Positions 8,400 to 60,499 of a stretch of 64,000 nucleotides of DNA are shown here, piece by piece. Origin of the DNA: Ulota crispa. Lineage: Eukaryota; Streptophyta; Bryopsida; Orthotrichales; Orthotrichaceae. Each line of letters opens with the position of its first letter. The first letter of the stretch is position 1. Location of the stretch: assembly GCA_963920765.1 (NCBI GenBank), contig OY987247.1, forward strand, positions 4,808,471 to 4,872,470. Direction: 5' to 3'. The notes under the pieces are model-generated. The model saw only the letters and a list, made by a program, of their open reading frames with translations. It did no database searches and was not told the DNA's origin. Made by a program: the position numbers and the translations under genes.

Positions 8400-8745
8400 C
8401 CTCTAAACGTCGAGGAGCACAAAAAACGTCCTCCGGCTCTGAAAAAATATTCTGTGATTCAGAAAAAGTCGTTTTTCATCTGATTTTTTTTTAAAAGTGA
8501 CCATAAACACATGGTCCATTATGGAAGACAAAAAAGATGCATTCTTTTTTTAGTAACCCAAACTGTGATAAGATTTAGAAACATGGTGTTAGCTCCCAAG
8601 CTGTCCTTCTTGCAATTTTCATGAGGACACCATGTACAGTCGACTTTTCCAACTTTTTGAAGCAATACTATTGATGCCCATGTGCAAAACATTGTAGACT
8701 GCTACAGGCAGGATAAGCCACGGTTATCCATCCGTCCTTTAAGGG
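8400..8745. mobile_element. TTAA-type TIR element (346 bp)
   Basis: The left end CCTCTAAACGTC is preceded by TGAA (probably a mutated TTAA). The right end CCTTTAAGGG is followed by TTAA at 8746-8749. The interior is shared with 4012-4255 and, more weakly, 11622-11990. Confidence 0.75.
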
Positions 8746-8829
8746 TTAAATCGTTTAATTCATTGTGCTCATCGAGACTTGTGTGTTACCGAAGCAAGTA
8801 CGTCACCTTAATCCAAGCTCTAGCGTTTT

Positions 8830-8995
8830 TTTTTGTACACGCAGCCTCACTTGAGAGGAGGAATTTGCGAGGGAAAAAATCTTAGTGGCTCAAATTGAAT
8901 TTGATACCTTCAAATCTGGTTTAAGGTGGCTATTTTGGATTAAGATGAATTACAAAATGGTACCCATCACTGTCCCATTTTAATGAATATGGCGT
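8830..8995. repeat. Dispersed repeat fragment (GAGAGGAGGAATTTG family)
   Basis: CTTGAGAGGAGGAATTTGCG and the following ATCTTAGTGGCTCAAATTG recur at about 9705-9855 and 50475-50612. The 50365-50614 copy is the complete TIR form. Confidence 0.7.
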
Positions 8996-9037
8996 TTAAA
9001 GCAAGTTTTGTACATAGCTCAAGAATCGGGGTTTCAA

Positions 9038-9273
9038 CCCCTGAGCACCCAACCCTAATTTGTGTAGTGTTAAACCCCATTGCAAACAATTTGACACCAC
9101 AAGTCCAAAAACAACATTTGGAAGAGTTAGCCGTTGATATTACACGAGGCTTAGGATCTGCATATGTATAAAAAATTTAATAAATTTTTGTTGCATGAAT
9201 TAAAAGATTATAACAGCTAAAGATAACAAACCATCAAATATGGAAAGACCACATTCTGTGGGGCGCTTAGGGG
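9038..9273. mobile_element. TTAA-type TIR element, GAGCGCCC subfamily (236 bp)
   Basis: The left end CCCCTGAGCACCC is preceded by TCAA. The right end GGGGCGCTTAGGGG is followed by TTAA at 9274-9277. It is closely related in termini and length to 14354-14591 and 39017-39259. Confidence 0.8.
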
Positions 9274-10688
9274 TTAAATTCCGAGGCTATGAAGCATTAG
9301 CACGGTTTTTGATTTAGGGTGTGGTCGTGAAAGAATAAAGAGAGCTATTGACTGAGTTAACTGTACTTGAGGAAGCTCATGCAACAAGGATCTCAATTGA
9401 TTAGCTATTGAAAATGCAAAGGGAATTGGTGATTTGTACTCTAAAGAGCACCATGATTTTTTTTTTTGCCTTCGGTGGATCTTCGGTGAGGTTCAAAGGA
9501 CACCGCTTACTGCAATTCCGAGGTGAAAAGAAGCAAAGATTAGAGACTATTGCCACCCATTCAGGTATGGTTTCTGTTGCCACGCTGAATTTACTGACAT
9601 TGTATAGACTCAGCCATAGTCGTTACTTTGGAAAAAATGGTACATTTTGGGACTTTCAAGAAGTTTGAGGTGGTCATCTCAAACTGAGCCCAACATTGCA
9701 CACGTGCCCTCAACTGAAAGGAGGGATTTGTGAGGGAAAACATTTTAATGGCTCAAACTGAATTTAATACCTTCAAATTTGGTTCAAAGTATTTTTTTGG
9801 GTTTGAGGTGGAGTACAAAATGGTATCTCTGTTTTTCCCAAATTAATGAATATGGTGTTAGAGTTGTTGCTTGTTTTGTAACGATGGAGAGTTTTGTTGA
9901 AGTACTCAATAGAACATGCTCCTTGTGAAATCATTCTACTTGTACCAGGTGGAGTGCTGCTCAAGAGACAGCCCGTGTCCATTCTTTGTATAGAATGTAC
10001 GCCTCTCGTACATTCAAGGAGTGCTGTTTCTTCAGCAACGCTCGTCCTCCTGCTCTTTCTTTTGGTGTTTTAGTATGTCCATTGAAGAGTGGGCTTTGTA
10101 GCCTTATGTTTTTCACAATCCTTGCTTTGTCATAAATAGGATGAATTCACAAATATTTGCGTGACAGTGGAATTATTGGTGTGGAGATTTGACTAATGCT
10201 GAGCCTCCTTCTCAAGATTCTTGCGGTTTGATGGTTGCGTGCAGGGATTTCTTCTAGAGAAAAGTGTCATGACCCTTGATAGATGATTGATTGATGGATG
10301 AGTGAGTGGCTGATGGATGAACTACTTCATAATAAATTTTGAATTAATAATTAAACTACTGAGGATGGTTGAAAGATTAATTAATTAATTAATTCACAAT
10401 GAATTGTGAATTAATAGTTAAACAATTGGTGAGGAACTAATTTACTATAAATTGTGAATTAGTACACAAGATGCAAAGGTTAGGAGGCGGACCTTTTTGG
10501 ATGATGGATTTATGCATTGGAGTTAGACAATTCCACATGGATGACAAGGGTATGGAATGTACATTGGATGACAAGGATACAGGATGTACACTTGATGACA
10601 AGACAAAGAGTGGGAACTTGGAGTTAGACAACGGAAAGTAATAGATGAGATATGATATGAAGTTATGCTTAGAATAGTTCTAAGTATA
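9274..10688. other. Intergenic, no gene recognised
   Basis: The region contains another fragment of the GAGAGGAGGAATTTG-type repeat at about 9705-9855 and an AT-rich stretch with ATTAATTAATTAATT at about 10378-10393. The open frame at 9408-9668 has no recognisable family resemblance. Confidence 0.5.
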
Positions 10689-11002
10689 AGGTATATACAC
10701 CCATAAGCGTCAAACTAAGGGTTTTGAACATGATGAGTATCAATAAGTAGCTAGCAAATTATAGGATCCTATTAGGAATAGGAAAATAATGACTTTGCAC
10801 TTTCAAATGTATTACTTGGATACTGTGAGAATAAGTTAAGAATTTTTAAAGAGCAAACTGTCATTGTACCCTTAACCATTTTTAAGAATTCATGTTCACA
10901 TGTTGTGCATCCTTGTAATTACATCTATTCACTTTCACAGATTTTTCAAGATTTCAAAAGTGACGGTTATGGGAACACTGACGCTTATGGGTACTCCTAC
11001 CT
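10689..11002. mobile_element. TA-flanked TIR element, ACCCATAAGCGT family (314 bp)
   Basis: The left end AGGTATATACACCCATAAGC pairs with the right end GCTTATGGGTACTCCTACCT, and TA sits on both outer sides. Relatives are 34680-35111, 32362-32760 and 61534-61838. The terminal AGGTA and TA target link it to the AGGTAGGAG MITEs. Confidence 0.8.
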
Positions 11003-11215
11003 TAATTGAAACTTTTACTTTAGTGGAAGGTTGTAAATGAATATTGAAGATATGAAAAGGATAGATAGTATAAGATGGAGCTCTGAGGGTGAGGAGATTA
11101 AATCTTGTGGGATTTAATCTCTCTCTATGGTTAGGTGGTTGAGCTCTTTGTTGTTTATATACTTTATTATATAAATACTATATTTTCTACTTGAGTCTTT
11201 GGATGATTTAAATTT

Positions 11216-11616: not shown

Positions 11617-11621
11617 CTTAA

Positions 11622-11990
11622 CCCCTAAACGTCCAAGAAGACAAAAATCATCCTTTTCATGCCAAAAAACACCCCGAGGGTGGAAAAATAATTTTTTTTC
11701 AATTTTTTTTTCTTGAAAGTGGTCAGAGAGATGTGCCACATCATTGAATGCCAAAAATAGCTACTCTCAATGCCTCCATATTTTTTAAAACACCAATTTG
11801 TAAAGAGATGTACAAGGTCCCCTGCTGCCCTTTTTGTGAGGGCAACATACACTATTGACTTTCCCTTTTTTTGAGAAGAATATTATCTCTCATGAGCACA
11901 TGCCACAACCTATGCACTGCTCATGAACAGTACACTCTCCTTGATATGAGCCCCAGGTTGACCATGGGTTTAGGGTCTGTCCTTTAAGGG
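11622..11990. mobile_element. TTAA-type TIR element (369 bp)
   Basis: TTAA at 11618-11621 is followed by CCCCTAAACGTCC. The right end is CTGTCCTTTAAGGG, with CTAA just after it (one base off TTAA). The interior is related to 8400-8745. Confidence 0.75.
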
Positions 11991-13309: not shown

Positions 13310-14230
13310 AGGTAGGAGGCTCTAATTCGGAGCAAGCTCTAAAATGGAGCAGCTTCTCAAATCCTCAACTGTACTCTCTTTGTACATGTTTTGTTTCATA
13401 CTCCCTCTGTCTCATTAGAAAACTTCAAAAAATTTCTCCATGAGGTATTAATTGTATTTTTAGTCATTATACTAATGATAGATGCATTCTAGAATCAATA
13501 TACCACCTACTAAATATTTGCAAAATCTGAAGTTTTTATGTTGCCGTTTAGACATCCAAATTCCATGCAAAAAGTGCCATTTTTTTGCATAGTTTGTGAA
13601 GGCTGCCGGCTCCTCATTATTTTAGTCTTTGTACTAATGACACATGCGTTCTAGAATCAATAAACCATCTACCAAATGTGTGCAAAATCTCCAACTTTGA
13701 TGTTGCCGTTTAGGCACCCACATTCCATGCAAAAAGTACCATATTTGTACATGTTGCTAGCTCCTCATTATTGATGATTTAAAGATTAGTAGCAACAACG
13801 GTACCGCATATAGGCAAGGCCAAGCTTGCTAGAAGAGGAATGCTCTCTAATTGCTTAAGTTGCCCCCATGAGATCATTGAACATGACAAATGCTTTCTCA
13901 ACAATTGAAATTAGCAAAAGGAAGCTTTTTAGTGGGACAAGAACTATGCCTAATTTGGAGCTTTATATTGGGATAGAGGGAGTAGCTCTTTAACAATGTA
14001 CATAAGATGTACATTTTAGGAGGTGCTCCTTTGTGGAGCCCTATGGTCTTTCCGCTTTAAATTTTCATATAACTAATTCCACAAAGTTTCAAAAAATATG
14101 AAACAACTTGGGATAGATGCCAATTCTTTTTGTCTTTCAAGAAAATTTACTGAAAAATATTTCAAGAAGTTTCACCTACCCAAAATTCAGTTTCAGCCCT
14201 TAGATGCTCCATTCATGAGCCTCCTACACT
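13310..14230. mobile_element. AGGTAGGAGGCTC MITE split by a nested element
   Basis: TA, then AGGTAGGAGGCTC at 13310, and the matching end GAGCCTCCTACACT then TA at 14231-14232. The normal 320-bp body is interrupted by 13401-13982: TGTACATGTTTTGTTTCA on the left continues as GCTCTTTAACAATGTACAT on the right. Confidence 0.85.
13401..13982. mobile_element. CTCCCTCTGTC (Stowaway-like) element nested in a MITE
   Basis: The ends CTCCCTCTGTCTC and GATAGAGGGAG are inverted, with TA at 13399-13400 and 13983-13984. The interior holds two similar blocks (CTAATGATAGATGCATTCTA and CTAATGACACATGCGTTCTA), so it has grown by internal duplication. Relatives are 18210-18603 and 21156-21735; 57013-57262 shares the termini. 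Confidence 0.85.
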
Positions 14231-14353: not shown

Positions 14354-14591
14354 CCCCTGAGCGCCCAGAGTTATTTTAGGGTTTAGGAAAAAATGGGGGG
14401 TTTAATCATTTAATGACCACTAGAGCTTGGAAAATTACATCAAGAAAAAGTGACCGTAAGATTTGAAAAAGGACTACCCTCTTTGCTGATGGAGACCAAC
14501 CACAACTATTTTCACCGTACACATCAAGAGAAAAAGTGAGATCAAGTTGTGATCCCCAACGATAGGATCCTGTCGCTGAGGCATTTAAGGG
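14354..14591. mobile_element. TTAA-type TIR element, GAGCGCCC subfamily (238 bp)
   Basis: TTAA at 14350-14353, then CCCCTGAGCGCCC; the right end is CATTTAAGGG, then TTAA at 14592-14595. Both copies of the target site are intact. Confidence 0.85.
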
Positions 14592-15415: not shown

Positions 15416-18400
15416 TTATGTTTGATCCCTAGCCACAGCAGCATTTTTCAAAGTACCAGCAATCCGCTCACAATCGTATTCCATGGTCTTCACCCAATTC
15501 TCAAAGTCTCCAATCTCCTGCAAGCAAAAGTCCAGTTGAAATCAGAGTTTATTAACCCTTACATATCACGATATATTGCTACCAACAGGACAGTCAAAGA
15601 AGGCGGTGAATGCTTCCCTTCATCTTCCTAATAGCAGATTCTCTGTAATTTTATCCCAAGAATCTGTCATGTTATGTGCAAATCTCATTGGATGACATAA
15701 ACATCCCAATGTCAAGTTGTGAATGCATGTTGGTCAGTGTGAAATTTGAAGCCCATTTGTGTCCCTGGGCAGTGCATTTAGAGGAAGATTGAGTGTATCA
15801 AGTTACAAAAGCGTACACTAAATATTGTGTTTAGGTTGCCCCACTCCAATTTCTTGCCATTTTACACTACATAAATACTTACTAGTACTACAATAAGCTT
15901 CATCAATAAATACTGCAATAAAAAATGTAATGACGCTGCTGAAAGACAAACTAGCAGTGTACAAGCTGCAAACCATGTGAAACCCTACACCAGATATTAC
16001 ATTTAGGTTGTCTTCACAATTAGGGCTGCCTTATCTTAAAATTTTACCTCACAACTCATTGCTTGGCCACTTGGAAACGCATGCATCTATGTAGATACTA
16101 GAATTTCACATAATTTATGACTTCAACCCTGCTAGTTTGTTTTTCTGCAGCTTTGTTGTTGTCGTCGTCATGCCTTTAAAAAAAATTGCAGTAATTATTG
16201 ATGAAACTTACTATAATAGTAATAAGTATCTATATGGTGAAAAATATCAAGAAATTAGTGTGAGGCAACCTAAACACAATATTTAGTGTAATATTTAGAG
16301 AGTTGCATACGCTTCCAAGTGGCCAAGCAATGAGTCATGAGGTAGGGTAACGCAACCTAAATGCAATATTTAATGTACACCAAATAGTGCATTTAGATGA
16401 CCTTAACAATTAGGTTGTCTTACCATGGAAAGTTACCTCATGACTCATGGCTTGATCACTTGGAGGCACATGTAACTCTTCAGATATTAGGATTTTACAT
16501 GGTTTACGACATGGACACCATTAATTTGTCTTTTTGCAGATGTGTTGTTATTGCCAAGGCCTTTAAAAGTTGCTTATTGCAGTAATTTACTGTAGCAACG
16601 GTAAGTATTAAAATAGTGTAAAATGTCAAGAAACTAGTGTGGGGCAACCTAAATAAATGCAATATTTAGAGTAGGTATTGAGAAAAAAAGGAAACATCTT
16701 TTTTTTTTGCAACTGAAGACGGTACATTGTAGAGATGAGGAGGCTGACCTTGAGTGCGGTGTCAAAAGTGTGCACAACAGTGAGCCACTGCGAGATTTGT
16801 TTCACGAACTTTTGAATCGTGACTCCCAGCGCTCGGGCCTCCGTCTCGATCCGCTTCTCATTAATAAAAGCTTGTTGCACACCTCCGTTCACACTCTCCA
16901 CTAAAAGGTCAGACACTACTGATGCTGATGCTAGCGCATCCTTCCTCGCCGTCTCTGCTTAAGCCAAATAAACAATCATAAGCAAAATCCAACCAGCCCT
17001 AAAATCAACATTCAACACAGACTATTTAAATCATACAACTGCGATTTCACTCAAGGAGCAACCTTAACCCCTAAAAGATGTTGCCTACCAAAAATGTTGT
17101 ATGTATTTGTACAAGGACCATTTAGTACTTGAAGAAATGACTATATGACAAATACAAAAAAATTCTCAAAAATCCCAATTGACTAGAAGTATGTTTATAA
17201 CATGGGTTGAAATTACAACTCCAATGGGATTCATGTGCTACCCAAATGCCCCATCCATATACAATACAAGATTCCGTATACAAAACAACAACATCCTTTC
17301 GGGGTTAAACAAACAAATACTCTCACATTCTAAAATTTCATTCGTGGAAGGCGTCTTCATTGTAACATTCTCATGGATCAGGTAAGGTAGGAGGCTCATG
17401 AATGGAGCATCTAAGGGTTGAAACTGAATTTTGGGGAGGTGAAACTTCTTGAAGTATTTTTCAGTAAATTTTCCTTGAAAAACAAGAGGATTTGGCATCT
17501 AACCCAAATTGTTTCATATATTTTGGAGCTTTGGAATTAATTATGAAATTTTGAAGTTGAAATGGCATAGGGCTCTAAAACAGTGCACCCCCTCAAATGT
17601 ACATTGCATGTACACTGTTGAAGGGCTTTGAAAAACATGTACAAATAGAGTACATTTGAAGAGGTGCACCATTTTAGAGCCTGCACGCTTTTTAAACCTC
17701 CTACCTTAGTAAGGTCAAAATAAACATAGTCTTAAGCATGGTTTTAGGAAAGACATCAAAACGGCTTGAGACCTCATAAATAGAACTCCAAAACTATTGA
17801 AACACAAGAAAATTTCATGGATACCCCTGCTTTTTCAGAAATTGCACAAATACCCTTGGACCACAATTTTCAGGTGTTTGTTTTGTTGTGCATGCCACTT
17901 CCCTTCTTCCTTTGTGCACGCGTTGCTTCTTTTTTGTTTCATTACATTCCCTTCTTCAACATTGGTCATGAAGGAAGTACAAGCACAACAAAATCAATAA
18001 ACGCCTAAAAAGTATGGTCCAAGGTGATTTGTGCAATTTCTGAAAAAGCAGGGGTATCTATGCAAATATCGCAAACTTCAGGGGTATCCATGAAAATTTT
18101 CCCTTGAAACAACTTGTCTTAGGTTCCATATTTTCAACATTAATCCTCGTCATGAAGTTAGATCCTTCCTAGTACGATTTCCGCGGAAGTGCTCGCTCGC
18201 TAAGCATTACTCCCTCTATCTCTCTAAAAATGTCCAAATCAAACACATTCCTTGTACCACTAAAAAGCTCATTTGCCATGTCCAATGATCTCATGGGAGC
18301 AAGTTAAACGATTAGAGAGCATTCCTCTTCTAGCAAGCTTGGCCTTGCCCATATGAGATACCATTGTTGCTACTAATCTTTTAAATCATCAATAATGAGG

Positions 18401-19099
18401 AGCTAGCAGCATGCACAAATATGGTACTTTTTGGCATAGAATTTGGGTGCCCAAATGGCACTATCACAACTAGAGATTTTACATACATTTGGTAAATGAT
18501 ATATTAATTCTAGAATGCATGTGTCACTAGCATAAAGACTAAAAAAACACAGTTAATCCTTCACAAGGAAGTTTTTTAAACGTTTTGAGAGAGACAGAGG
18601 GAGTTATTTAAAGTTGCAATCCTAAATCGTATAGACCAAGTGAACCCTAATCTCAAAATACACGAATTGGTAATAATTTTCCCGGTTTGAACTAGAGAGA
18701 CAGAGGGAGTATTTAAAGTTGCAAGATAAATTGTATAGACCAAGTGAAACCCTAATCTCAAAATATACGAAGGATTGCTAATAATTTTCCTGGTTTCAAC
18801 TAGAGAGACAGAGGGAGTATTTAAAGGTGCTAACCCTAAATCGTATAGACGAAGTGAAACCCTAATCCAGATATACACCAAGGATTGGAAACAATTTTCC
18901 CGGTTCCGACTAAACCCTAAAGACATTTACAGAAGCGCATATACACACACACGGACTCATCCATCGCTGGTTGCTTGCAAACCCTAAACCCTAATCTCAA
19001 CAAGATTGACAAAAACGTACCAACACGCTCTCGATTCTGAGCAGACTCGTACGCGTGCTTCTGCATCATGTGCGCCACCCACACATCCAAGCTCCCCAT
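15416..19099 (-). CDS. BLOS1: BLOC-1 subunit 1 (BLOS1/GCN5L1 family)
   Basis: Three exons on the minus strand, 19099-19021, 16954-16749 and 15517-15416, join in frame to 128 residues. Conserved stretches are TARKDALASASVVSDLLVES, VNGGVQQAFINEKRIETEAR, FVKQISQWLTVVHTFDTALK and the C-terminal EIGDFENWVKTMEYDCERIA. BLOS1 is a small coiled-coil protein of the BLOC-1 complex; in plants it works with sorting nexin 1 in endosome-to-vacuole transport, and in animals also in mitochondrial and lysosomal acetylation biology. It is a little shorter than the Arabidopsis protein I recall (about 150), mainly at the N-terminus, so an upstream coding exon cannot be excluded. Introns 1 (2066 bp) and 2 (1231 bp) are filled with TIR elements. 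The gene is head-to-head with NDUFA2. Confidence 0.95.
15812..16675. repeat. Cluster of TIR elements in BLOS1 intron 2 (AGGTTGCC family)
   Basis: GTACACTAAATATTGTGTTT at 15812 pairs with AAACACAATATTTAGTGTAA near 16270. A second copy starts GTACACCAAATAGTGCATTT at 16376 and ends near 16674. Additional reversed termini at 16345-16376 show that copies landed in or beside one another. The complete single copy is at 20616-20924. Confidence 0.75.
17068..17304. mobile_element. TTAA-type TIR element in BLOS1 intron 1 (237 bp)
   Basis: TTAA at 17064-17067, then CCCCTAAAAGATG; the right end is CATCCTTTCGGGG, then TTAA at 17305-17308. Both flanks are intact TTAA. Confidence 0.85.
17385..17706. mobile_element. 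AGGTAGGAGGCTC MITE in BLOS1 intron 1
   Basis: TA at 17383-17384, AGGTAGGAGGCTC at the left, CCTCCTACCT at the right and TA at 17707-17708. It is opposite in orientation to the copy at 4336-4651. Confidence 0.88.
17810..18106. mobile_element. TIR element, ATACCCCTG family, in BLOS1 intron 1
   Basis: AAAATTTCATGGATACCCCT on the left and AGGGGTATCCATGAAAATTT on the right. The inner pair is CTTTTTCAGAAATTGCACAA against its inverse near 18032-18051. Confidence 0.85.
18210..18603. mobile_element. CTCCCTCTATC (Stowaway-like) element in BLOS1 intron 1
   Basis: TA at 18208-18209 precedes CTCCCTCTATCTC. The right end is GAGACAGAGGGAG at 18603, followed by TT rather than TA. The interior is shared with 21156-21735 (AATAATGAGGAGCTAGCAGC). 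Confidence 0.8.
18589..18911. repeat. Tandem array of about 107-bp units in BLOS1 intron 1
   Basis: GAGAGACAGAGGGAGT, TATTTAAAG.TGC, CGTATAGAC.AAGTGAA and ACCCTAATC recur in order with starts near 18589, 18695 and 18803. Each unit begins with the right terminus of the Stowaway-like element, so the duplication happened after that element inserted and carried its end along. Confidence 0.85.
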
Positions 19100-28778: not shown

Positions 28779-28865
28779 CCCTTGAACGCCGAGGTTGGTC
28801 ACCGTGGTTGTACTAGCATAGTGTATTATCCACGGACGATTTTTGGCCGCCTCGTTGTGTAAGGG
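28779..28865. mobile_element. Very short TTAA-type TIR element (87 bp)
   Basis: TTAA at 28775-28778, then CCCTTGAACGCCGAGG; the right end is CCTCGTTGTGTAAGGG, then TTAA at 28866-28869. It is the smallest member of the group and consists of little more than its two ends. Confidence 0.75.
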
Positions 28866-30970: not shown

Positions 30971-31904
30971 CCCCTAAAGGACCAAGCCCTTTTTTCTATG
31001 AAAATTTCTAAAAACTATCACTTCTAGGAGGTTTAGTACTAGAAAGGGATTCTAAGTTTTGTTTTTGGAAAATCCAACCATAGGATCTTGCCCTATACTT
31101 GAAGAGGTACTTGTGGGAAAAAAAAAAAGCTCATTCCAAATGGAGACGAGTGAGATATTTACGTCTAAAGTGAAAAGAAAATAGTTTTTTTCATGCTACC
31201 CAAATGTTTTAGAAGCCTTTGACCACTCTTATAACAAAAAAAAAGCTCTACCCAAAGTTGCGCTTTATTCTTTTCATGTAGTACATCAACTTAGGTATGT
31301 GTGAGAGAATTTTCAAATCAGTACTATACAACACATGGGAAAAAATAGTAAGTAAAAAGAAGTAGAGAATGAGTCAAAACCCTAAATTGTTAAGAATTTA
31401 ATTATTGAAATGAAAAATGCAAATCCCAACAATTATTATTTTGTGATAAACAATCTGTTTCCTTTGGTTTATTTTTTTTCTTCAAAATATGGAAAATTGA
31501 GTAAAATAAAGGACTTCAAAGTTTATTTTAGAGTGGAGAATCCATAACTGCCGGCAAACAAAAACTCCTCATAACTTTCATCTCATTGATTGAAATTGAA
31601 TGATTCAAAGCTTCTCACGTGTAAAAAAAATCTAAAGAATCAATTTCAAATATTTATTTTTACAAAATGTGATTTTTAAAGAAGTTTTTGGGCTGCCTAG
31701 ACGGGCAATCCTCCCCAACTTTTCACAAATTCATGCATAACTTCTTCATCAAATGTCGGAATGAAGAAAAATTTAGATGCCCACATGGTTCTTTGAATTC
31801 TCCACCTTTAATAAAAGTTTCAGAAAATCACACAAAGTAGTTTAGCCATAGATACATGCCTGAAGTCCAACCTGTCCCTCGAAGGGACAATGGTCCTTTA
31901 AGGG
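30971..31904 (-). mobile_element. Long TTAA-type element, about 930-bp family (copy 1)
   Basis: TTAA at 30967-30970, then CCCCTAAAGGACCAAG; the right end is GGTCCTTTAAGGG followed by TGAA. The interior is shared, inverted, with 37421-38335, 43211-44135, 44278-45211 and 51053-52002 (for example CATAACTTTCATCTCATTGA). No ORF of transposase size is present. Strand is relative to the other copies. Confidence 0.85.
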
Positions 31905-37420: not shown

Positions 37421-38335
37421 CCCCTAAAGACTGTTTGTCCGTTTGGGGGACAAATGGATTTTGGGCATGTATCTATGGTTAACCTATTTTGTGTAATTTT
37501 TTGAAACTTTGATTGTAGGAGGGGAATTCAAAAATCTATGTGGACGTTTAATTTTTTCTTCATTTCAACATTTGACAAAGAAATTATGCATGATTTTATG
37601 AAAACTTGGGGAGGATTGCCCATCCGTGCAACCCAAATATTTCTTTAAAAATTACATTTTTTGAATTTTATTTTTTGAAACTGGTTCTTTAGATTTTTTA
37701 GTACGTGAGAAGCTTCAAATCATTCCATTTTAATCAATGAGATGAAAGTTATGAGGAGTTTTTGTTTGCGGGTAGTTAGGAATTCTCTACTCTAAATTAA
37801 ACTTTGAAGTCCTTTATTTTACTCAATTTTCATTATTTTGGAAAAATAAATAAACCTATGGAAGTAGATTGTTTATTACAACATTACAACTGTTGGGATT
37901 TGCATTTTTCATTTCAATAATTAAATTCTTAACAATTTAGTGATTTGACTCATTCTCTACTTCTTTTTACTAACTATTTTTTCCCATGTGTTGTATAGTT
38001 CCAATTGATTTGAAAATTCTCCCACATATAACTAACTTGATCTCCTACATGGGAACCTCAACTTTGCGTAGAGTAACTTTTTTGATATAAGAGTGGTCAA
38101 AGACTTTTGAAATTTCTAGGGAGCAGGGAAACAAAAAATTGCACTTTAAATGTAAATATATCACTTCTCTCCATCTAATTTTACTTTATTTTTTCCCACA
38201 AGTTCCTTTGGTAGTCTAGAGCAAGATCTACAGCTAGATTTTAAAAAAACAAATTTTCCTACTTTTCTACTCATTCCCCAGAAGTGGCAGTTATCAGTGA
38301 CTTAACTTGAAAAAAAAGGCTCAGTCCTTTAGGGG
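37421..38335 (+). mobile_element. Long TTAA-type element, about 930-bp family (copy 2)
   Basis: TTAA at 37417-37420, then CCCCTAAAGACTG; the right end CAGTCCTTTAGGGG is followed by TTAA at 38336-38339. Both targets are intact. The termini are followed inward by a small inverted repeat (TTTGTCC / GGGGGACAAATGG) seen in all copies. Confidence 0.9.
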
Positions 38336-39016: not shown

Positions 39017-39259
39017 CCTCTGAGCGCCCCAGCAATCACTATGTGGTTTCTCAATTTTGAAAAATGTTCATGTTTGACTCTTATCCTCTTCTTAATGGTA
39101 AAGTCAAAGGACTTGTACTTTTTCATGTACCTCCAGGCATGTGTTTACTACCACTCAAAAAAAAATCCAAGCTATTTGACTCTACTAAGGTAATACTTTT
39201 ACTAGATTAAGTAAACAAAGGGTATAGATTTGAGTGAATATGGCCTGGGCGCTCAGGGG
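39017..39259. mobile_element. TTAA-type TIR element, GAGCGCCC subfamily (243 bp)
   Basis: TTAA at 39013-39016, then CCTCTGAGCGCCCC; the right end GGGCGCTCAGGGG is followed by TTAA at 39260-39263. The inverted ends match over 13 bases with one difference. Confidence 0.9.
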
Positions 39260-41358: not shown

Positions 41359-41583
41359 CCCTTCGAGGAGCCCTTTGCGGCCAATATAATATTTGGTATT
41401 TTATTGTATTTGGAATGCATTCACACCTTTATTACATTTGAGATCAACATAGAAGTTAGAATATAGATCAATGCGGTTCTTGTGAGCTAGTCAACATCTC
41501 AAATTAAAACTTTTTATTGGTAGCAAATGTCAGTTATACGGCAGCATATTTACTATGTAATATGTAGAGCGGTCCTTTAAGGG
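41359..41583 (+). mobile_element. TTAA-type TIR element (225 bp), left member of a head-to-head pair
   Basis: TTAA at 41355-41358, then CCCTTCGAGGAGCC; the right end GGTCCTTTAAGGG is followed by TTAA at 41584-41587. The interior is the reverse complement of the neighbour at 41588-41811. Confidence 0.9.
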
Positions 41584-41587
41584 TTAA

Positions 41588-41811
41588 CCCTTGAAGGACC
41601 ATAGGACATAGTATATACGCTAACATATATTTGTCATTTGCTATCAATAAGCAATTTTAATTTGGGATCTCAAGTAGCTCACTAGAACCGCTTTGATCTA
41701 TGCTCCAACTTCTTTGTTGATCTCATATGTAGTAGAGGTGTGGATCCATTCCAAATACTAGAAATACTCCGTATTGTATTGGTCACAGCAGCACACTTAG
41801 TCCTTTAGGGG
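41588..41811 (-). mobile_element. TTAA-type TIR element (224 bp), right member of a head-to-head pair
   Basis: It shares the TTAA at 41584-41587 with the previous element, starts CCCTTGAAGGACC and ends GTCCTTTAGGGG before TTAA at 41812-41815. A third copy of this subfamily is at 60272-60499. Confidence 0.9.
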
Positions 41812-43210: not shown

Positions 43211-44135
43211 CCCTTAAAAGGACTATTGTCCCTTTGAGGGACAGGTTGGACTTCGGGCATGTACCTATGACTAAACTACTTTGTGTGATTTTCTGAAATT
43301 TTTAATGAAGGTGGGGAATTCAAAGATCTATGTGGGCATCTAAATTTTTCCTCATTTTGACATTTGATGAAGAAATTATGCATGAATTTATGAAAATTTG
43401 GAGAGGGCTGCCCTTCTTGTAAGCCCAAAAACTTCTTTAAAATTTATGTTTTTTAAAAATCAAAAATTGAAATTGGTTCTTTATATTTTTTAATAAGTGG
43501 GAAGCTTTGAATCATTCAATTTCAATCAATGAGATGAAAGTTATGAGGAGTTTTTGTTTGTGGGCAATTATGGATTCTCTACTATGAAATAAACTTTGAA
43601 GTCCTTTATTTTACTCAATTTTCATTAATTTGGAAAAAGAACAAAACCAAAGGAAGTAGACTGTTTATCATAACATTATAACCGTTGGGATTTGTATTTT
43701 TCATTTCAATAATTGAATTCTTAACAATTTAGGGTTTTGACTCATTCTCTACTTCTCTTTACTTACTCCCATGTGTTGTATAGTTCCAATTGATTTGAAA
43801 ATTCTCCCACACATACCTAGCTTGATCTCCTACTTGGAAAAAATAAAGCACAACTTTGGATAGAGCAACTTTTTTGCTATAAGAGTGGTCAAAGGCTTTT
43901 GAAATTTTCAAGCAGCATGGAAAAAACTTTTTTTTTCACTTTAGATGTAAATATCTCACTCCTCTCTATCTAGAATGAGCTCATTTTTTTCCTACAAGTA
44001 CCTCTTCTAGTCTGGAGCAAGATTCTATGGTTAAAGTTCCCAAAAAAACAAAACAAAAAAACCCTATTTACTAAATCTCCTCGAAGTGGCAGTTTTCAAT
44101 GATTTTCATAGAAAAATGGACTGGTCTTTTAGGGG
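43211..44135 (+). mobile_element. Long TTAA-type element, about 930-bp family (copy 3), with ATAA flanks
   Basis: The left end CCCTTAAAAGGAC and right end TGGTCTTTTAGGGG are flanked by ATAA on both sides (43207-43210 and 44136-44139). This is the only copy where both flanks agree but are not TTAA, which supports a 4-bp target duplication. Confidence 0.88.
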
Positions 44136-44277: not shown

Positions 44278-45211
44278 CCCCTAAAGGCCCAAGTGTCCCC
44301 TTGGGGGACAAATGGACCTCGGGCATGTACCTATGACTAAACCAGTTTTTATAATTTTTTTGAAATTTTTGTGGATGCTGGGGAATTCAAATATGTACGT
44401 GCACATCCAATTTTTTCTTCATTCCGACAATTATTGAAGAAGTTATGCATGAACTTCTGAACGACATGGAAGGGCAGGCAATCTGGGCAGCTCAAAAAGC
44501 TTCTTTAAAAAATGTATTTTTTTATTTAAAAAATCTGAAATTGGTTCTTTTGATTATTATATATGTGGAAAGCTTTGAATCATTTGATTTTGATTGATGA
44601 GTGAGAAGTTTTAGTTTGCGGGTAGGTATTGGATTCCCAAATCTCTATTTCTTTTGCCCCTTGTAAAATTTTGTGCTTTAATTTTTTTTTGACTTTCTTT
44701 TTTCCAAGTTGGAGTAGACTAAGATTCCTTGGTTTTCGCTGTTTGGATCAAAGTAATTTAGATTTCTCAATTTTACATAAATCCTCCAATTTTGCCAAGT
44801 GTATATGCAAAGTTCATGGCTGTACGACACTGCAATATTTTACAAATTATGATCCACACCTTCCATTCATTTAAAAATTCTCCCACACTTACCTAACTTG
44901 GTCTCCTACATGGGAAAAATAAACCTCATCTTTGCTTAGAGCAACTTTTTTGATATAGAAGAGGTCAAAGGCTTCTGAAATTTTTGGGCAGCGAGGAAAA
45001 AAACTTATTTTTGCACTTCAGATGTCAATATCTCACTCCTCTACATCTAAAACAAGCTGATTTTTTATTAGCAAGTACCTCCCATAGTTTAGAACATGAT
45101 CCTATGGTTGGATTTCCAAAACAAACTTGTTTTCCTACTTTTCTACTCATTCATTCAAAAGTGGTAGTTTTTAGTGATTTTTACAAAAATAAGAGCTTGG
45201 GCTTTTAGGGG
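44278..45211 (+). mobile_element. Long TTAA-type element, about 930-bp family (copy 4)
   Basis: TTAA at 44274-44277, then CCCCTAAAGGCCCAAG; the right end CTTGGGCTTTTAGGGG is followed by TTAA at 45212-45215. It lies 142 bp from copy 3 in the same orientation. Confidence 0.9.
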
Positions 45212-48220: not shown

Positions 48221-48224
48221 TTAA

Positions 48225-49138
48225 CCCCTAAAATTCTTTTGTGTTTAGAAGCCCAAAACTGCTTCAAAATACTAGTCCCCAAAGCAAGGTCAAAATCTTC
48301 ATTAAAATTTACTTTTTAACAAATTCAATCACATGATCCTTTCGTTGACTTGCATAAGTACATTGCCTTAGAATTTCAGAATGAATATCCCCACCAATTG
48401 CAAGATCAATGTGCCTAAATTTCAAAATGTAAGCTTTTCTAGTCCTTCCAAAAGGTGAAGTTTTGCTTTTCAAACTTTTTAGAGAAAAACACATATGTTT
48501 TATTTCTTGTGCAATTTTGGCAATATGTTGAAAAATGGGTTGAAAAAACATATTAAGAAACTTAACCAAAAAAATAAATTGGATTCATTTTTACAAAAGT
48601 TGTAATGTGAAAGGTATTGATGAATGAAAGGTGTAACTAATATGCTAATGAGTTTTGGAAGAATTTGAAAATTGTTAATCCTAGTGGTGAGAATGCTTTA
48701 ACAGACAACTAGTAATTTTCATTTTCATTTTCATTTGAAAATTTTCAAAATGGAGAGTAAAAGATAACTTTATATGCATTTTCTACCCTCTTCCTACCTT
48801 CATTGCCTGCAAAATAAAACTCCTTGTAACTCTTACCTCATCATTTGGAATTGAGTGATTCAATTTTTTTTGAGTAGGTATCAATTTATAAAATTCTATA
48901 AATAAAAAAATAAGAAATTTAGAATATAATTTTTGCTGCCCGATTTGACATTGAAATTGAAAAAACCTTCTAACTTTTGCATTACTTATTGGAATGACAT
49001 GAAATAAAGCTTCACATGTAGATTATGATGAATAGCATCCATCTTAAAAATTTCATGAAAAATTTTCAAATTATGAAGTCAATAGAACCTGCCCGAGTTC
49101 TCATAAAGCCCAAAGTGGGCTCTTTGGTCCTTCAGGGG
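48225..49138 (-). mobile_element. Long TTAA-type element, about 930-bp family (diverged copy 5)
   Basis: TTAA at 48221-48224, then CCCCTAAAATTC; the right end TTGGTCCTTCAGGGG is followed by CTAA. The interior is alignable to the others only in patches (AACTCCTTGTAACTCTTACC region, inverted). It is the most diverged copy. Confidence 0.65.
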
Positions 49139-51048: not shown

Positions 51049-51052
51049 TTAA

Positions 51053-52002
51053 CCTTTAAAGGCCCAACTGTCCCCTCGGGGGACAATTGGGATTTTGGGC
51101 AAGTACTTATAATTAAATTGTTTTGTATGATTTTCTCAAAATTTTATGAAAAATGGAGAATACAAAAGATTTGCGTGGGCATCTAAGTTTTTCTTCATTT
51201 GAACATTTATTGAAGAAGTTAGGCATGAATTCTGAAAAATGAGAGAGGGTGGGCATCCTAAAAACTTTTTTTAAAATTTCTTTTTTAAAAATAAAAATCT
51301 GAAATTGGTTCTTTAGACTTATATGTATGTGGGAAGCTTTGAATCATTCAATTTTGATAAATGAGATGAAAGTTATGAGAAGTTTTAGTTTGCTAGTAGT
51401 TATGGGACTCCCAAACCTCTATTCCTTTTGCTCCTTGTAAAATTTGGTGCTTTACTTTTTTGAGCAGTTTGTGTATTTGTTTTTGGACTTATTTTTTTTC
51501 TAAGTTTTAGTAGACTAAGTTTCCTTGGTTTTCACCATTTGGATTAAAGTATTTCAGATTTTTGAATTTTACATAAATCCTCCAATTTTGCCTAGTGTAT
51601 ATGCAAATTTCATGGCTTTACAACATTGTAAGATTTTACAAAGTATGATTTACACCTTCAATTCATTTGAAAATTCTCCCACACTGACCTAACTTGGTCT
51701 TCTACATGGAAAAAATACACCGCAACTTTGGGTAAAGATTTTTTTTGATATAGGAGTTGTAAAAGGTTTTTGAAACTTTTAGATAGTAGGAAATTTTGTT
51801 TTTCCACTTCAAATGTTAATATTTCACTCCTCTACATCTAGAATGATTTGATTTTTTTTCCCTCAAGTACCTCCCATACTCTAGGGCAAGATCTTATGGC
51901 TGGATTTCCAAAAAAACTTTTTTTCTACCTTTCTACTCATTCCCCAAAAAGTGGCAGTGTTTGGTAACTTTCACAAAAAAAAAGGGCTTGAGCCTTTAGG
52001 GG
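51053..52002 (+). mobile_element. Long TTAA-type element, about 930-bp family (copy 6)
   Basis: TTAA at 51049-51052, then CCTTTAAAGGCCC; the right end GAGCCTTTAGGGG is followed by TTAA at 52003-52006. Its interior is closest to 44278-45211 (shared ATTTTACATAAATCCTCCAA and TTGCC.AGTGTATATGCAAA). Confidence 0.9.
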
Positions 52003-52006
52003 TTAA

Positions 52007-53300: not shown

Positions 53301-54665
53301 TGATGTGCTGTGCGTAATCACCTCACCCTGGGTCCCATGGTGTGTGCAGAAGCAGAAGTGCTAAAACGTGGGAGTTCCAGGACATAGCTGAATTAGTGTG
53401 GACTGTGGCCTCTGGACAGAGCCGCCGCGCGCAGGGGCAAACCTACTTATGCGCAGGTAGAGACGCAGATGAAGAGCAACCTGAGTTTGAAGAGCGCATG
53501 TTTTTGCTTCGTATCTTGAACATCCTTTTTTCTTTCGTTGCTTCTGCTTGAGTCGGAAGGGTAAGTGAAGGCGCCGTTTCATGAGGTCACTTCATGTGGT
53601 TAAGACTTTCAGTTTTTGATTAAAAGTTAAAATTACTCCCCGTCTTTCTGTTTTTTGAATGCGGACGACTTCGCCTCGGTTCATAGTATATGAATGCAGT
53701 GCTGTGTTTGGAAAACTGCAACTCGTGTACGACCGCCGCTGATTGTTTAACTTTGGATTTGTCGCCGTGTGACCTGCCACCGCTGCGCTTTTCTTCTTCT
53801 TCTTCTTCGCAGTGTGCTTTCAGATTAGGGCAGGCGCAACACGTGTTTCTTAGCAGTAGCTTCGGCTTCATTTGGCTGGCGGTTCGCTTCAAGTTTGCTT
53901 CCTTTCTTGCATCGTATTCCAGGCGGTCTGTTCCAGTCAGAGTGCTATCAGAGTGTACGTCGTTTATGCGCGTCAGTGTGTTGCGTTTTTGAAGACGACC
54001 GTTAAATTGTGAGTAGTCTCGAGAGAGAAAGAGAATTGCAGTTATCAAGAGTTGTGAACTTTCTTGTCATCGCTCTAGGTTTGTGTATTTTCATTTTCTT
54101 ATTTACATTCGTCTCCTTCGGGCTCTTGAGTGAGCACTCGCAGTCCAGTTGGATTCTGTCGAAGCTCTGGATTGAGTTAATAGACTGCCGCTTTTTTTTT
54201 GCAAGAAGAGACACTTCGGTCGCTCTCTTCGTAATGCACTGTTTTGTATCACAATCTTTAGCCCTTGTGTTCGCTGTTCCAGTGCTTCCTTGTCCTTGCA
54301 TTGTCTTCTGGCAATCTCTGTACGGAACGCTCTCATCCAGGAGCATATGGACGGCTTAGCCTTATCTTTACGTACCTCATCGCCGCGTTCTAGGGTTTCA
54401 CGAACGTTTTGCTTAGTTAACTCCTTTGCGATCAGTCGTCTCTGTTTAGGACTGTTTTGCGAGTGGCCGTCTTGCTTTCCTTGCAGAACTACAAAATCCT
54501 ATCTAATTTACTATCGAAGGGATTATTTAATTTTGCACAAGACTATTCTGTCTTCGGCAGTTGTCCAGTGTTGTCGTGCTTCGCTAAGGTTTCTTCCGTT
54601 TTGCAGGTTCTTGCGACGAACTCAGTCGCCGGAGCATAGGTTACCGGGTAGTGCAGCTAGAAGAG
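53301..54665 (+). promoter_or_regulatory. Promoter and long leader region of DRE2
   Basis: Pyrimidine-rich sequence with a TTC run at about 53790-53808. TTCTTCCGTTTTGCAG at 54591-54606 looks like an acceptor, so a leader intron probably ends about 60 bp before the start codon. The frames at 53690-53992 and 54290-54700 have no conserved domain. Confidence 0.5.
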
Positions 54666-57600
54666 ATGGCCACAAATGCTGCAGTCCTGGTCGTGACTGA
54701 TATGTCCACCGTTACAGAACCGGTGGAACGGTGGGTCAAGGAGAAATACAAGAGCGCCGAACTGCAAATCCTGACCAATATCCAAGCCGGTGGTAAGCAT
54801 TTTTCTGCTTTTCCCTTGCTAATGCTGGCACTGGATTTTGTTACAGTTCTCATTGACTCTGTTCTCATTGACTTTACTGAACTTCATGTGTGTGTCGATT
54901 CAGAGAGCAAGCTTGATGCTTCGACATCGACAGTGAATGTCTTCATTTCTTTGATGCAAGCACCAGGCCGTCATTCATTGAAGTTCCTTAAAGAGATTGC
55001 TCGTGTGCTCAAGCTCGGTGGAGACATTTTGGTGCAAGAGCCTGTACTTGCAGACGCTCAAGAACTTAAGGTAGCTTAACTCGGGCTTTGTTCTGTTGGT
55101 TTCGTAGAATCTGTTCTCTCAAAGTTCTTGATTAGGTTGTAGGCGTCTTTTCTTCTCAGCATGCAACCTACAGGAAAACGAAGTATTGCAAGGTGACCGT
55201 GTCCACCTGTCTGATTGAGGCTTTTTAATGTTTTTGCAGTGCTCCAGTGCGCAAACGAAAGATACGTTGGAGCGGAACTTGCTGGTTACTGGCTTCGTGA
55301 ATGCTGCTGTTGTAGAGACTGTCCCTGGAGTAGAAATTAATAAAGCGTGTACTACTAGCTCTGTTGCCTTGAACCTGGTTGCCGTAAGTCTCCCTCTTTC
55401 TCTCTTGAGCTTTTTACCTTCTGAAGCAGGTTCCAGCAATTGTGGAAATCAGAGTATTTTGATTGGAACTGTCGGTATTTCTTTGTTTTCAGTTTGTAAA
55501 TCTTGTGAAAGGGTGTGCATGTTCTTTTTTTTTTCTGTTGTTTATTGCTGATTGTACGTGGTTGGGATTTTTGGAGACTGCGACGTTTGTGATTTTGGTA
55601 GTTTTGGTTGGGTATATTTGTTTGACTGTTTATATGTTCCTGGATATTGCAGATGAAAGCTAAGAAGCCTTCTTGGGAAACGACATCTGTATTCCAGCTT
55701 AAGAAGAAGGTCGTCAGCCAGAACGGTACGCTCCTGCACTGCGAGTATATGGTTTATTTTGTTTCATTAAGGAGGCGACACGTTGTATAGGAATTTTCTT
55801 TAATTACTTACTGCCTGTCTAGGTAACAAATTTTCTACTTCTGTTTCTGTGCTTCAAAGTGTGCACTTAAATTTGGTATCTAATATTTACACACAATTTA
55901 CTTCTCACTGCAACTGAATCTACATCTATGGATGTCTTTTCACTTTTACGGTGTTACCAAAGACTAACCGAGTGTGAATCATTTTTACCTGAACAGGAAG
56001 TGCCAGACCAAATTCGAAAGCTGTGAAACTCTCCGTTGGGGACGTGACAGACGATGTTTTGCCAATTAAGAAACCAACGATTAAATTTGATTTTTCTAGC
56101 GATTTTAAGAACGACGACGATGAACTTATCGACGAGGATGATCTTCTTACTGAGGAAGATTTGAAGGCTCCTGTGGTGCCCAGTAAGTATTTCTCTCCCT
56201 GATGAAACCTCGGGTGCTGGCTTCTTGCCCTCTTGTCCATTTGACTTTCGTTGCACTAGTGCCGCTTTAGGTTGCACAAGCCGAAGGAACAAGCTCGAGA
56301 TGAATAAACTATAAATTAAGTTGAAACTAAAAAATCGCAAATAGGGTGAGTTTACAACCATTAAATCATCCGTAGGTTTTGTCCAACCTTTTAGAAGTAT
56401 CGAGTCCAATTCAATGACATAGCTTGATGAATTATTTACTCAGATGATTTGAGTAGAAGCTATGCACTTTTGGAACAGGGGTAACTTGGGTCACAACGAG
56501 GTAATAGAATTTGGTAGCAAGCAAATGTTTGTTTTGCATTTATTCTTTTCAATTAAGCAAGTTCAGTTGGCACTAAATTATTTAGGTAACTAAGCATATT
56601 TGCTTAAATATGGTGTAAGATTTCCTGCTAACTCTAGCGTGTTCCCTCTGTTACGTGCAATCAAAGTGTCATGGTTCCTTTAAGCCAGGGAGGACCTGCG
56701 TTAAATACAGTTGGATGATTTACTAATAAATTGTCTGTGTATGCGTGTCTCAGAGGCTGAGAGCTGTGCTCCAACCAAAAAAGCTTGCAAAAATTGCTCG
56801 TGTGGGCGTGCTGAGCTTGAAGTAAAGGAGGAACAGACTAAACTTACAACTGCACAGATCAACAATCCTAAATCTGCTTGTGGAAGTGTAAGTAGCTGAA
56901 AGTGCTCTGCTTGATGCTTCCAACTCTTTAAGCTCTGTTTTTTCTTACCATCAAATTGTGTTGTGGCCATGCAAAACTGTTGGAGATGAACATGAGAATA
57001 AAGGATACGGTACTCCTTCTGTCTCGCTATATGTGGCCCATTAGAAACTCGTGATCTTTTCAGCGGTTTTGAGTAGGTTGTATATCGGCTTGAGAGGTCA
57101 AAATTTCAAGTAGGTTGCAATGAACACGTACGATGTTCATCACTGTTTGAGGTGATGTAAAAGTTGCACCGTTTTTAATAATGTATTTTACAATATGATC
57201 AATGAAAGTGGACCAAAAAAACATGAGGTTCGAACGGTCCACTTATTGAAAGACAGAGGGAGTATTAGATTTTAAAATACAGTTTATTTAGTAATACCAT
57301 TTCTCTCCGCTTTCATGTTGAGACCCCTTGACAGGCTTAGATGCATCTGTAGTAGTTGGCACTGTAATTCCTGTTGTGTACTTAGGATTGATCTTTCTCT
57401 TGTGGATGTTTTTCAGTGTGGACTTGGCGATGCATTCCGTTGTTCTGGATGTCCGTACAGGGGCATGCCCACTTTCAAGCTTGGAGAGAAGGTAACCTTT
57501 TTTCTTTTCACCTTTTAATGGTTGGGAAGGTAAAAAAACTCATGTTATTCATAAAATTTGAATATCAGACGTAGCAATGTTTTTTTAACACATTTTATCT

Positions 57601-58480: not shown

Positions 58481-59131
58481 TGTGTCGATTCTCTTTTTTT
58501 GAATCTTTGGTGGTTTCTGTTGGTTTGGTGTATTGAAATGCAAATTGGTTTAGTCTGTGGTGGCCTGGTGGGGTGTGCTGTATTGTAACTTCTTTGCGTT
58601 GTCTTTGGTGGTTGATGTCCATTTGTACTTGGTGGTGGTGGTGGGACGATACGAAGGTGAACTCAAGCCAGAGGTTGCACTCAAAATCAATGAACATTTC
58701 ATATCGCTTCGTGCAAAGATAATAGTGATGTCTCAACCTTGTGCTAGTTAATTATGTTGCAAACTAGAATCTTCATCACATTCAAGGTGAATGTTCATCA
58801 TTTCTAAAAATATGGAGTTCACCACTTCGAATTTTTGCATTCGTCCTTCGTAAAAAATGCTTTTGAAATTTTTAAAAATCCATATTTTCATCACCTGATT
58901 GCTCAGTAATTATTAGGAAAAGCTAATCTTTGTATAATAGTATGTAAAATGAATCTTTTCACAACAAATGTATTGAAGAAAATTACTCTTGAACAGTTCA
59001 AAGTGCAATTGACTTAACTATCACATGGGTAAGTAAAACCGAGTTTTTTTTATTCTAAAAGACACGTTATTTAGTTTTGATTCAAAAGTCTATACTCTCA
59101 AGGTTAATAAAGTTTAAGCTCTTACTTGGAG
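58481..59131. other. Intergenic, nothing recognised
   Basis: GGTGGTGGTGGT near 58631-58642 is a short simple repeat. No conserved coding sequence. Confidence 0.4.
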
Positions 59132-59615
59132 CAAAATTTTGAACCCTCCAAGAGGTCCTTTTAAGTTTTGACACTCTTAACATTTATTGAGCCTAGGCCG
59201 GGCACATTAGAAACATGTGTGAAGATTCTCTACCTCATATGATTTTTTGATTGTATGTCACAACAAGCATGTATATAAAATGGAAATCTAGTCCTTGTAT
59301 GAAGAACTTTGATGCACAATTCCTAACAATAAAAAGAGCATTGAATTCATAAAGTATGTAAATGTACTCACTAGTCATTATCCAAGTACTTCACTCATCT
59401 ATATACAAATAGAGTAATTTTTTTGGACTCTATTGTACATATGTACCCATAGCTTTGTCCAATTGGGATGCACAACAACATAACTTTCATGATTGCATTG
59501 AACTAAAAAAGTGGGCAAAAATTGGGGATTAGTGATTTGTTTGTTGCAATAAGTATATAACTTGGGATCCTTTTTGAGACTTGTTATGGGCCTCTTGGAG
59601 GGTTCAAAATTTTAC
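59132..59615. mobile_element. TIR element with AAAATTTTGAACCCTCCAAG ends (484 bp)
   Basis: AAAATTTTGAACCCTCCAAG, then AGG.CC on the left is inverted at 59588-59614 on the right. No ORF of size; the interior matches no other element in the window. Confidence 0.75.
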
Positions 59616-59681
59616 CAATGTAGGATATATATTGGTCATAGTAGTTCATTTAGGGTCTTAACATTGCCCCCCCTCCCTTTT

Positions 59682-60021
59682 TGATATTGCCACCCCCCTC
59701 TTTTATTTTGATGTTCAAATTTTAGTGCTTTTTGGGGACAATTATATATATAAAAAAAAACTAAATTTGTATAAAACCAAGTGATTTGTTGTGGTGTTTT
59801 TCAAATTGACAAATTGCAATCAAAAAATTTGATAATAAAAGACAACACTCTATTATATTTTCTTATCAAAAATTTTGATTGCAGATTATCATTTTAAAAA
59901 AAACCAAGAAAAAATCACTTGGTTTGATACATATTTAATTCTAATTTTTTAGTATAAAATTGTCCCAAAAACCACTAAAATTTGAACAATGAAGTAAAAG
60001 AGGGGGGTGGCAGTATCAAGA
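59682..60021. mobile_element. Fold-back element with GATATTGCCACCCCCCTC arms
   Basis: GATATTGCCACCCCCCTCTT and the following CAAATTTTAGTG are inverted at about 59960-60020 (CACTAAAATTTGAAC, AAGAGGGGGGTGGCAGTATC). The arms also pair near the centre (CAAGTGATTTGT region against AAATCACTTG), so almost the whole element can fold back. Confidence 0.8.
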
Positions 60022-60271
60022 CCCTTCATTTAAAGTTTGAGTGTGTAGTTTTCAAGCAATCCCGATTTCAATATAATTAAAAATAAAGAAGCATTTAAAT
60101 CTTTGTTTATTTGTAGTGACAGTATGACTGTAGTAAGTTAGTGGCATGTATTGACATGATAAATTGATTTTAATCTTAGTGCTGAAATAGTAATGATGGG
60201 TACACTGATGCTTTCTTAGAAGATGCAGGATTGTAGGCAAATGAAAATCATGGTGGTCATAAAATTACTTA

Positions 60272-60499
60272 CCCCTTAAACGACCATAGGGCATAGTATA
60301 TATGTTGACGTATAATTGTCATTTGTTACCAATAAAAAATAAATAAATTGTGATCTCAAGTAGCTCACTACAATTGCATTGATCTAATTTTCAACTTCTT
60401 TGTTGGTCTCAAATGTAGTAAAGGTGTGGATCCATTTCAATCACAAGAAAAATACTTTGTATTGTATTGGTTGCAAAAGGCCTTTTGGTCATTTAAGGG
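60272..60499 (-). mobile_element. TTAA-type TIR element (228 bp), same subfamily as 41359-41811
   Basis: The left end CCCCTTAAACGACC is preceded by CTTA. The right end GGTCATTTAAGGG is followed by TTAA at 60500-60503. The interior phrase CTCAAGTAGCTCACTA is shared with 41588-41811. Confidence 0.85.

Follow-up and report, generated by a model that had tools for sequence, protein, structure and literature searches.

Sixteen short transposable elements lie in the window analysed here, a stretch of 64,000 bases (G000:C6:4808471-4872470) from an assembly of 274.8 Mb in 157 contigs, and we interpret them as non-autonomous, miniature piggyBac transposons. We put the probability of this reading, together with the mobilisation in trans, the origin by deletion or capture and the decay of transposases that it would entail, at about 0.96. 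The elements are assigned to piggyBac because they have TTAA targets and ends of the form CC(C/T)...GGG, because single-TTAA empty sites exist for three copies of one family, because their ends are abundant in the genome, and because transposases are encoded within elements of the same frame. The assignment had been proposed in a first-pass annotation of the window; it is now supported by genome matches to PF13843 (DDE_Tnp_1_7), by TTAA empty sites, by the ends themselves and, for a family of 934 bp, by arms shared with a transposase-encoding element.

Sixteen elements with one type of end

The first-pass annotation described TTAA followed by inward ends of the type CC(C/T)(C/T)T, with the inverse at the other side, and reading the ends and flanks confirmed this frame for all sixteen elements. 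As it had also counted, nine have TTAA on both flanks: 14354..14591 (238 bp), 17068..17304 (237 bp) and 28779..28865 (87 bp), all three given without strand, 37421..38335 (plus strand), 39017..39259 (plus strand, 243 bp, ends CCTCTGAGCGCCC/CCCCTGAGCGCCC), 41359..41583 (minus strand, 225 bp), 41588..41811 (plus strand, 224 bp), 44278..45211 (plus strand, 934 bp) and 51053..52002 (plus strand, 950 bp). Most of the remainder were said to carry TTAA on one side and a sequence one base off on the other, which holds for five: 8400..8745 (346 bp, ends CCTCTAAACG/CCCTTAAAGG, flanks TGAA/TTAA), 9038..9273 (236 bp, ends CCCCTGAGCACCC/CCCCTAAGCGCCC, flanks TCAA/TTAA), 11622..11990 (369 bp, flanks TTAA/CTAA) and 48225..49138 (914 bp, flanks TTAA/CTAA), again without strand, and 30971..31904 (minus strand relative to the 44278 element, flanks TTAA/TGAA). 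Of the other two, 43211..44135 (plus strand) has the same non-canonical ATAA on both flanks, and the last element had been given a start, 60272, that is one base early; 60273..60499 (plus strand, 227 bp) gives flanks TTAC/TTAA.

The inverted ends are short and imperfect, with 8-15 of 16 bases matching, and their pairing far exceeds chance. TTAACC[CT][CT]T occurs 16 times on the plus and 12 times on the minus strand of the window, and forms 10 inward-facing pairs 60-1200 bp apart, compared to a mean of 0.13 (maximum 3) in 60 first-order Markov sequences; for the stricter TTAACCC[CT]TNA, four pairs were observed and none by chance. Together, the sixteen elements occupy 8,005 of the 64,000 bases (12.5%). 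A likely further member is located at 4016..4263 (plus strand), with a TTAA-CCCTTACACGCC end and TTAA at 4012-4015; its positions 4062-4263 match the 8400 element at 70%, and only the near end of this candidate is delimited. The 8400 element has additional relatives at the genomic loci L014, L018, L010 and L049.

The interiors had been described as different, which is true of part of the set only. Five elements of 915-950 bp (30971, 37421, 43211, 44278 and 51053) are related by BLAST, that at 51053 counting as a member of the 934-bp family, a second family comprises 41359, 41588 and 60273 (the 224-bp family), and the remainder lack mutual matches at E <= 1e-3. The 48225 element belongs to a separate family, having only stretches of 35-62 bp in common with two elements of the 900-bp class.

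Seven of the sixteen elements were searched genome-wide, and since only about 40 candidates were scored for each (12 for the 87-bp element), copy numbers are lower bounds. For six of the seven, every one of the 40 candidates scored, the window copy among them, was a match, mostly spanning the element to within a few bases of its ends, which gives at least 40 copies each. Identities to the window copy are 84-92% for near-full matches of the 934-bp family (44278; two extra short pieces, 73-75%), 89-92% for other copies of the 243-bp family (39017), 79-96% for near-full copies of the 237-bp family (17068), 88-91% for those of the 914-bp family (48225), 85-89% for those of the 224-bp family (41588), and 86-90% for other copies of the 369-bp family (11622). 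The 87-bp element has 12 matches including itself, the other 11 at 75-85%, and eight of these (nine with the element itself) span positions 1-87. The end word TTAACCCCTAAAGG occurs 15,411 times in the genome (7,719 and 7,692 on the two strands), its reversal once, and the window holds five compared to 3.6 expected from the genome mean. The elements are thus short, have inverted ends and are present in high copy number, as expected of miniature inverted-repeat transposable elements (MITEs); derivation from an autonomous element was found for the 934-bp family only.

Some MITEs adjoin one another: 41359..41583 and 41588..41811 share a single TTAA (41584-41587), and the copies at L035, L037 and L046 abut or lie directly beside another CCC-type end. 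This may reflect elements inserting again into a TTAA that a previous one had left.

A four-base target

TTAA flanks both sides of 16 among 21 copies of the 243-bp family (20 fetched copies and that of the window); one of the others has TTAG/TTAG, and four have TTAA opposite TTAG or CTAA. Among the first 100 places listed for CCCCTAAAGGCCCAAG (of 1,697), 89 are preceded by TTAA, and among the first 100 for CCCCTGAGCGCCC (of 1,480), 94 are, both samples coming entirely from contig C1 and excluding 4-mers that begin with G. TTAA also precedes 16 of the 21 CCC(C/T)TAAAGG words in the window and 20 loci. The ends start with CC(C/T), the exception being the proposed element at L010, whose left end starts with CTC.

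Paralogues that lack the insertion and hold a single TTAA, which the first-pass annotation had suggested looking for, were found for three insertions. We compared 38 joined-flank queries (the 16 window elements, some in several forms, and 20 fetched copies) against the window and L009-L048. For the insertion at L044, five paralogues have a single TTAA and a sixth has TTAG; for L031, L018 and L027 each have a single TTAA, a poorer match at L022 also reads TTAA, and a fourth has a two-base gap at the site; for L047, three paralogues have a single TTAA. Of two junction matches for L039, one reads TCAA and the other is misaligned, and L048 gives CCAA. Matches for L045 (CTAA, CCAA, CTAA, TTAA, gapped) and for the 30971 element (TTAG, with hardly any left flank) were too poor to be used. 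The sites for the L044 insertion were provided by another repeat family of the window (13458-13984, 18262-18549 and 21154-21569). A copy of the 243-bp family at C3:23781799-23782279 (L032) has TTAG on both flanks, which when joined gave a self-match with one TTAG, a possible non-canonical target.

Short length, high copy number and an A/T-rich target are also typical of the Tourist-like MITEs of PIF/Harbinger. Were the elements of this kind, the duplication would be of 3 bp, TTA or TAA, with the fourth base coincidental; TTAA includes both triplets, and PMC10004981 describes Tourist MITEs of plants whose target is TAA/TTA. However, a 3-bp reading leaves the two ends asymmetric, and the flanks vary as units of four, ATAA on both sides at 43211 and TTAG on both sides at L032. 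The identical variant at 43211 speaks for genuine duplication of a 4-bp target, and, with the TTAA empty sites, the flanks depart from the 3-bp TWA duplication of PIF/Harbinger, which also employs another transposase. For the 934-bp family, the alternative is refuted by a PF13843-encoding element whose arms are the same (see below), and we consider it highly improbable overall.

piggyBac transposases in elements with the same frame

PF13843 has at least 120 matches in the genome (116 candidates scored, best E 1.3e-73), distributed over contigs C1-C11. An open piece of 361 amino acids at L014 matches piggyBat (9c0f) with E 2.4e-25 and the transposase of 6x67/6x68, which we take to be Trichoplusia ni piggyBac, with E 6.4e-24, and in the alignment to 9c0f and 6x67 the three Asp motifs (the D-D-D triad) line up. 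A motif search of 20 loci recovered all three motifs in four (L011, L012, L014 and L025); the other 16 are without one or more, whether through decay or through a failure of the motif to detect them. At L012, an open reading frame of 155 amino acids holds the Cys-rich stretch CQCCGTRCRTFCPMCGDVYLCIGDC, for which the tools returned no identification as the C-terminal cysteine-rich zinc domain of piggyBac.

Pairs of TTAA-bounded ends are proposed for seven of the 20 loci (L009, L010, L012, L013, L014, L016 and L027). One of the two strongest delimitations is the element at L012, with 5,738 bp, a perfect 15-bp inverted repeat and TTAA. L009 and L018 align at 90.5% over 5,029 columns, the alignment breaks at the target sites, and the two have no other same-strand match above 300 bp; L018, which had yielded no pair in the first scan, was delimited afterwards by this alignment, and its left target site is TTCA. 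Because of the same alignment, the best-scoring pair at L009 (9,117 bp, 15/20 end bases) was set aside for one of 5,019 bp (14/20). The pairs at L010, L013, L014, L016 and L027 match at 10-12 of 20 end bases and are less certain. Those at L011, L022, L023 and L028 were ambiguous, those at L015 and L020 poor, and none of these was used. Full-length elements that combine matching ends with a DDE_Tnp_1_7 transposase, likewise suggested beforehand as a target for searching, were thus present: the transposase-encoding elements measure 5-8.8 kb and have the same TTAA/CC(C/T) frame.

Like piggyBac and piggyBat (6x67/6x68 and 9c0f), these elements combine a DDE_Tnp_1_7-type domain and an aligned D-D-D triad with a TTAA target and CCC-type ends. 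They differ in their plant host, their length of 5-8.8 kb, a long 5' region with extra conserved coding stretches, mostly decayed copies, and a very large load of MITEs. At G000:C1:1180709-1181995 and G000:C8:19570986-19572215, paired PF13843 matches lie in stop-free frames of 563 and 472 amino acids, which are candidates for intact or domesticated piggyBac genes. Transposase pairs with the same score and opposite orientation, about 15-20 kb apart (G000:C7:18203169/18223004 and G000:C2:36765124/36779670), suggest inverted segmental duplications.

The 934-bp family shares both arms with a transposon

The closest tie between MITE and transposase is an element of 8,426 bp at C4:11551260-11559685, which is flanked by TTAA and contains the left (212 bp) and the right (543 bp) arm of the 934-bp family. 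Its PF13843 match at 11553055-11554200 has E 6.1e-60 and five internal stops. The left end, TTAA-CCCCTAAAGGCCCATTGTCC, matches the left arm of six 934-family copies at 70-79% over up to the first 212 bp, and beyond this arm the element aligns at 66% over 1,158 columns to the interior of the clade of L025. A second long element, at L073/L025, measures about 8.8 kb, its last 70 or so left bases and left TTAA lying outside the fetched sequence. In 6 of 40 transposase loci, the right part of the family (about 320-570 bp, depending on the locus) forms the right end, bounded by TTAA, with identities of about 65-78% at L025, L026, L054, L058 and L062 and a weaker 60% or so at L011. This arm sits 1.63-1.94 kb after the transposase domain, the right ends at L054, L058 and L062 lying 1,762, 1,628 and 1,795 bp after it. 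Within 4.4 kb upstream of the domain, no left ends were found for the clade of L011, L025 and L026; those of two members lie further out. Matches at L053, L055, L056, L050, L017 and L022 were rejected as neighbouring or nested MITE copies.

In the 44278 element, the two piggyBac arms cover 755 of 934 bases (1-212 and 392-934) and leave the middle 179 uncovered. Because a TTAA-flanked element encoding PF13843 carries both arms, MITEs of the 934-bp family are, judging from these alignments, internal-deletion derivatives of piggyBac transposons.

Several transposase lineages

The first-pass annotation further suggested that one transposase had served many non-autonomous families. One transposase for all families is not supported, since many divergent lineages coexist: single linkage at 55% identity or above divides 20 transposase domains, including decayed copies with stops masked, into 10 groups, with pairwise identities of 27-81% overall and 27-54% between groups. 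The ends also differ among lineages (CCCCTCATCGCC, CCCTTGACCGCC, CCCCTAAATGCC and CCCTCTAACGTC). Mobilisation of every MITE family by one lineage would account for the TTAA-CC(C/T)(C/T)T common to all families and for the first 10 or so bases common to some, yet the number of groups and their differing ends speak against it, as does the right arm of the 934-bp family, which is the element end in 6 of 40 loci that all belong to one clade where compared. We regard a single lineage as unlikely.

Differences between domains are concentrated at third codon positions in four of five pairs (L014/L021, L010/L020, L025/L026 and L012/L022), as in L014/L021 with 0.20/0.17/0.55 at the three positions, whereas L009/L018 show no such excess (0.11/0.10/0.10). 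The excess between lineages and its lack in L009/L018 fit function during divergence and neutral decay after insertion.

L014, L021, L009, L018, L017, L010 and L019 encode a conserved module of up to about 110 amino acids on the strand of the domain, about 1.4-2.2 kb upstream of it. At L014 it occupies positions 2522-2896, and its pattern is VVNCLxExxLLSLP...TRNWRYLxxRQIAKLLGW. The match at L020 is partial and lies at the edge of the locus, 4.2 kb upstream, and those at L015 and L027 are weak; the copies in L021, L009, L018, L010 and L020 contain stops. Here, too, differences are in excess at the third position for L014/L021 (0.30/0.15/0.54), less so for L010/L020 (0.36/0.21/0.44), and show no such excess for L009/L018 (0.13/0.04/0.07). 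A Pfam scan of four pieces gave no match above the cut-off, and the predicted fold, which is helical and of low confidence (mean predicted local distance difference test score 66), had no PDB match at E <= 0.001. The module may be a second gene or an N-terminal exon. A separate acidic 5' stretch is common to L025, L071, L026 and L070.

Host genes

The host is a plant, to judge by its coding sequences. Open frames at 1807-5561 of the window include one (3450-3956) matching U-box (1.7e-9) and Arm (5.9e-11). The frame at 54588-55079 is anamorsin-like, at 7.6e-7 barely above the family cut-off. The PsaD gene on contig C3 is plant-type and split by an intron. Its best single-copy PDB chains are 8htu (315 bits), 7ksq (303) and 6l35 (297), followed by 9lut (295); the first three are presumably moss (Physcomitrium) photosystem I, the search output giving no organism, so that a moss-like plant is the likely host. 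The 698-aa chain of 9vfj outscores all others by a score that sums three repeats.

Discussion

Under the piggyBac reading, a piggyBac transposase acting in trans would bind the MITE ends, excise the element and paste it into a new TTAA site. Several piggyBac lineages would have existed side by side, and each MITE family would descend from one of them through internal deletion or the capture of ends. Several transposase lineages would each serve related ends, and most transposase copies would then have decayed.

Several observations weigh against this reading. Only 8 of the 38 joined-flank queries match across the junction, three of them cleanly (L044, L031 and L047), and the clean sites all derive from copies of one family, that of 243 bp. 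In the first scan for end pairs, 7 of the 20 transposase loci (L017, L018, L019, L021, L024, L025 and L026) gave none bounded by TTAA. A tie to a transposase that goes beyond the ends exists for the 934-bp family alone; similarity between the 243-bp family and the L010 element is confined to the ends (CTCCTAAGCGCCCCA/CCCCTAAGCACCCAGCC), so that an L010-like partner is tentatively proposed from a short similarity, and for families other than these two no transposase partner was identified. PF13843 matched none of 14 control genomes, a weak control if these are prokaryotic, as the one named is. Finally, 110 of the 120 PF13843 matches contain stop codons, and no full-length copy was demonstrably intact.

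Such decay might also be expected if the transposases were contamination or bystanders and the MITEs had been moved by other means. The matches nevertheless lie on contigs C1-C11 amid the same MITEs, L009 and L018 represent a unit that was mobile in this genome, and the arms of the 934-bp MITEs are those of a transposase element, which refutes the idea for that family. We give it very little credence.

piggyBac-type elements are best known from insects and other animals. The earlier view that they are not a regular part of plant genomes is nonetheless too strong, because publications already list the superfamily there. PiggyBac is named among the MITE superfamilies of angiosperms (PMC10004981) and among plant superfamilies (PMC10794571), piggyBac-like elements are present in plants (PMC8086355; PMC10813416), PiggyBac is listed for every group studied, land plants among them (PMC4438587), and a table for ferns gives 1,230 PiggyBac entries, with 122,417 in the adjacent column (PMC6890710). 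The present MITEs belong to the same superfamily as those listed for angiosperms (PMC10004981); here, the transposase source of one family was identified in the same genome by shared arms. A recent survey that covers 207 plant genomes, bryophytes accounting for four, divides MITEs into five superfamilies and one special group, with average shares of 0.7-2.2% across plant groups, and neither 'piggyBac' nor 'TTAA' appears in its text (PMC12550479). In a moss paper, one of two occurrences of the word is 'piggybacking' (PMC10619864). Our search of the literature on mosses, bryophytes, land plants and algae, judged mainly from listings, returned no report of piggyBac in a moss, nor of this abundance or such a derivation of MITEs in a moss-like genome.

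Scaling the 12.5% of this one window by the density of end words (3.6 to 5) yields a rough estimate of 9% of the genome for piggyBac MITEs. With slightly less than even confidence, we propose that piggyBac is a long-resident, possibly dominant superfamily of DNA transposons in this moss-like lineage, with ten or more lineages that have their own MITEs and make up about a tenth of the genome, and with an upstream module, present in many of the elements, that is perhaps a plant-specific second protein or N-terminal exon. A plant genome with a piggyBac MITE content of possibly 9% would be missed or misfiled by schemes like that of the survey. Its diverged piggyBac lineages provide material for studying end recognition and the origin of MITEs, and the single-TTAA empty sites could serve as markers.

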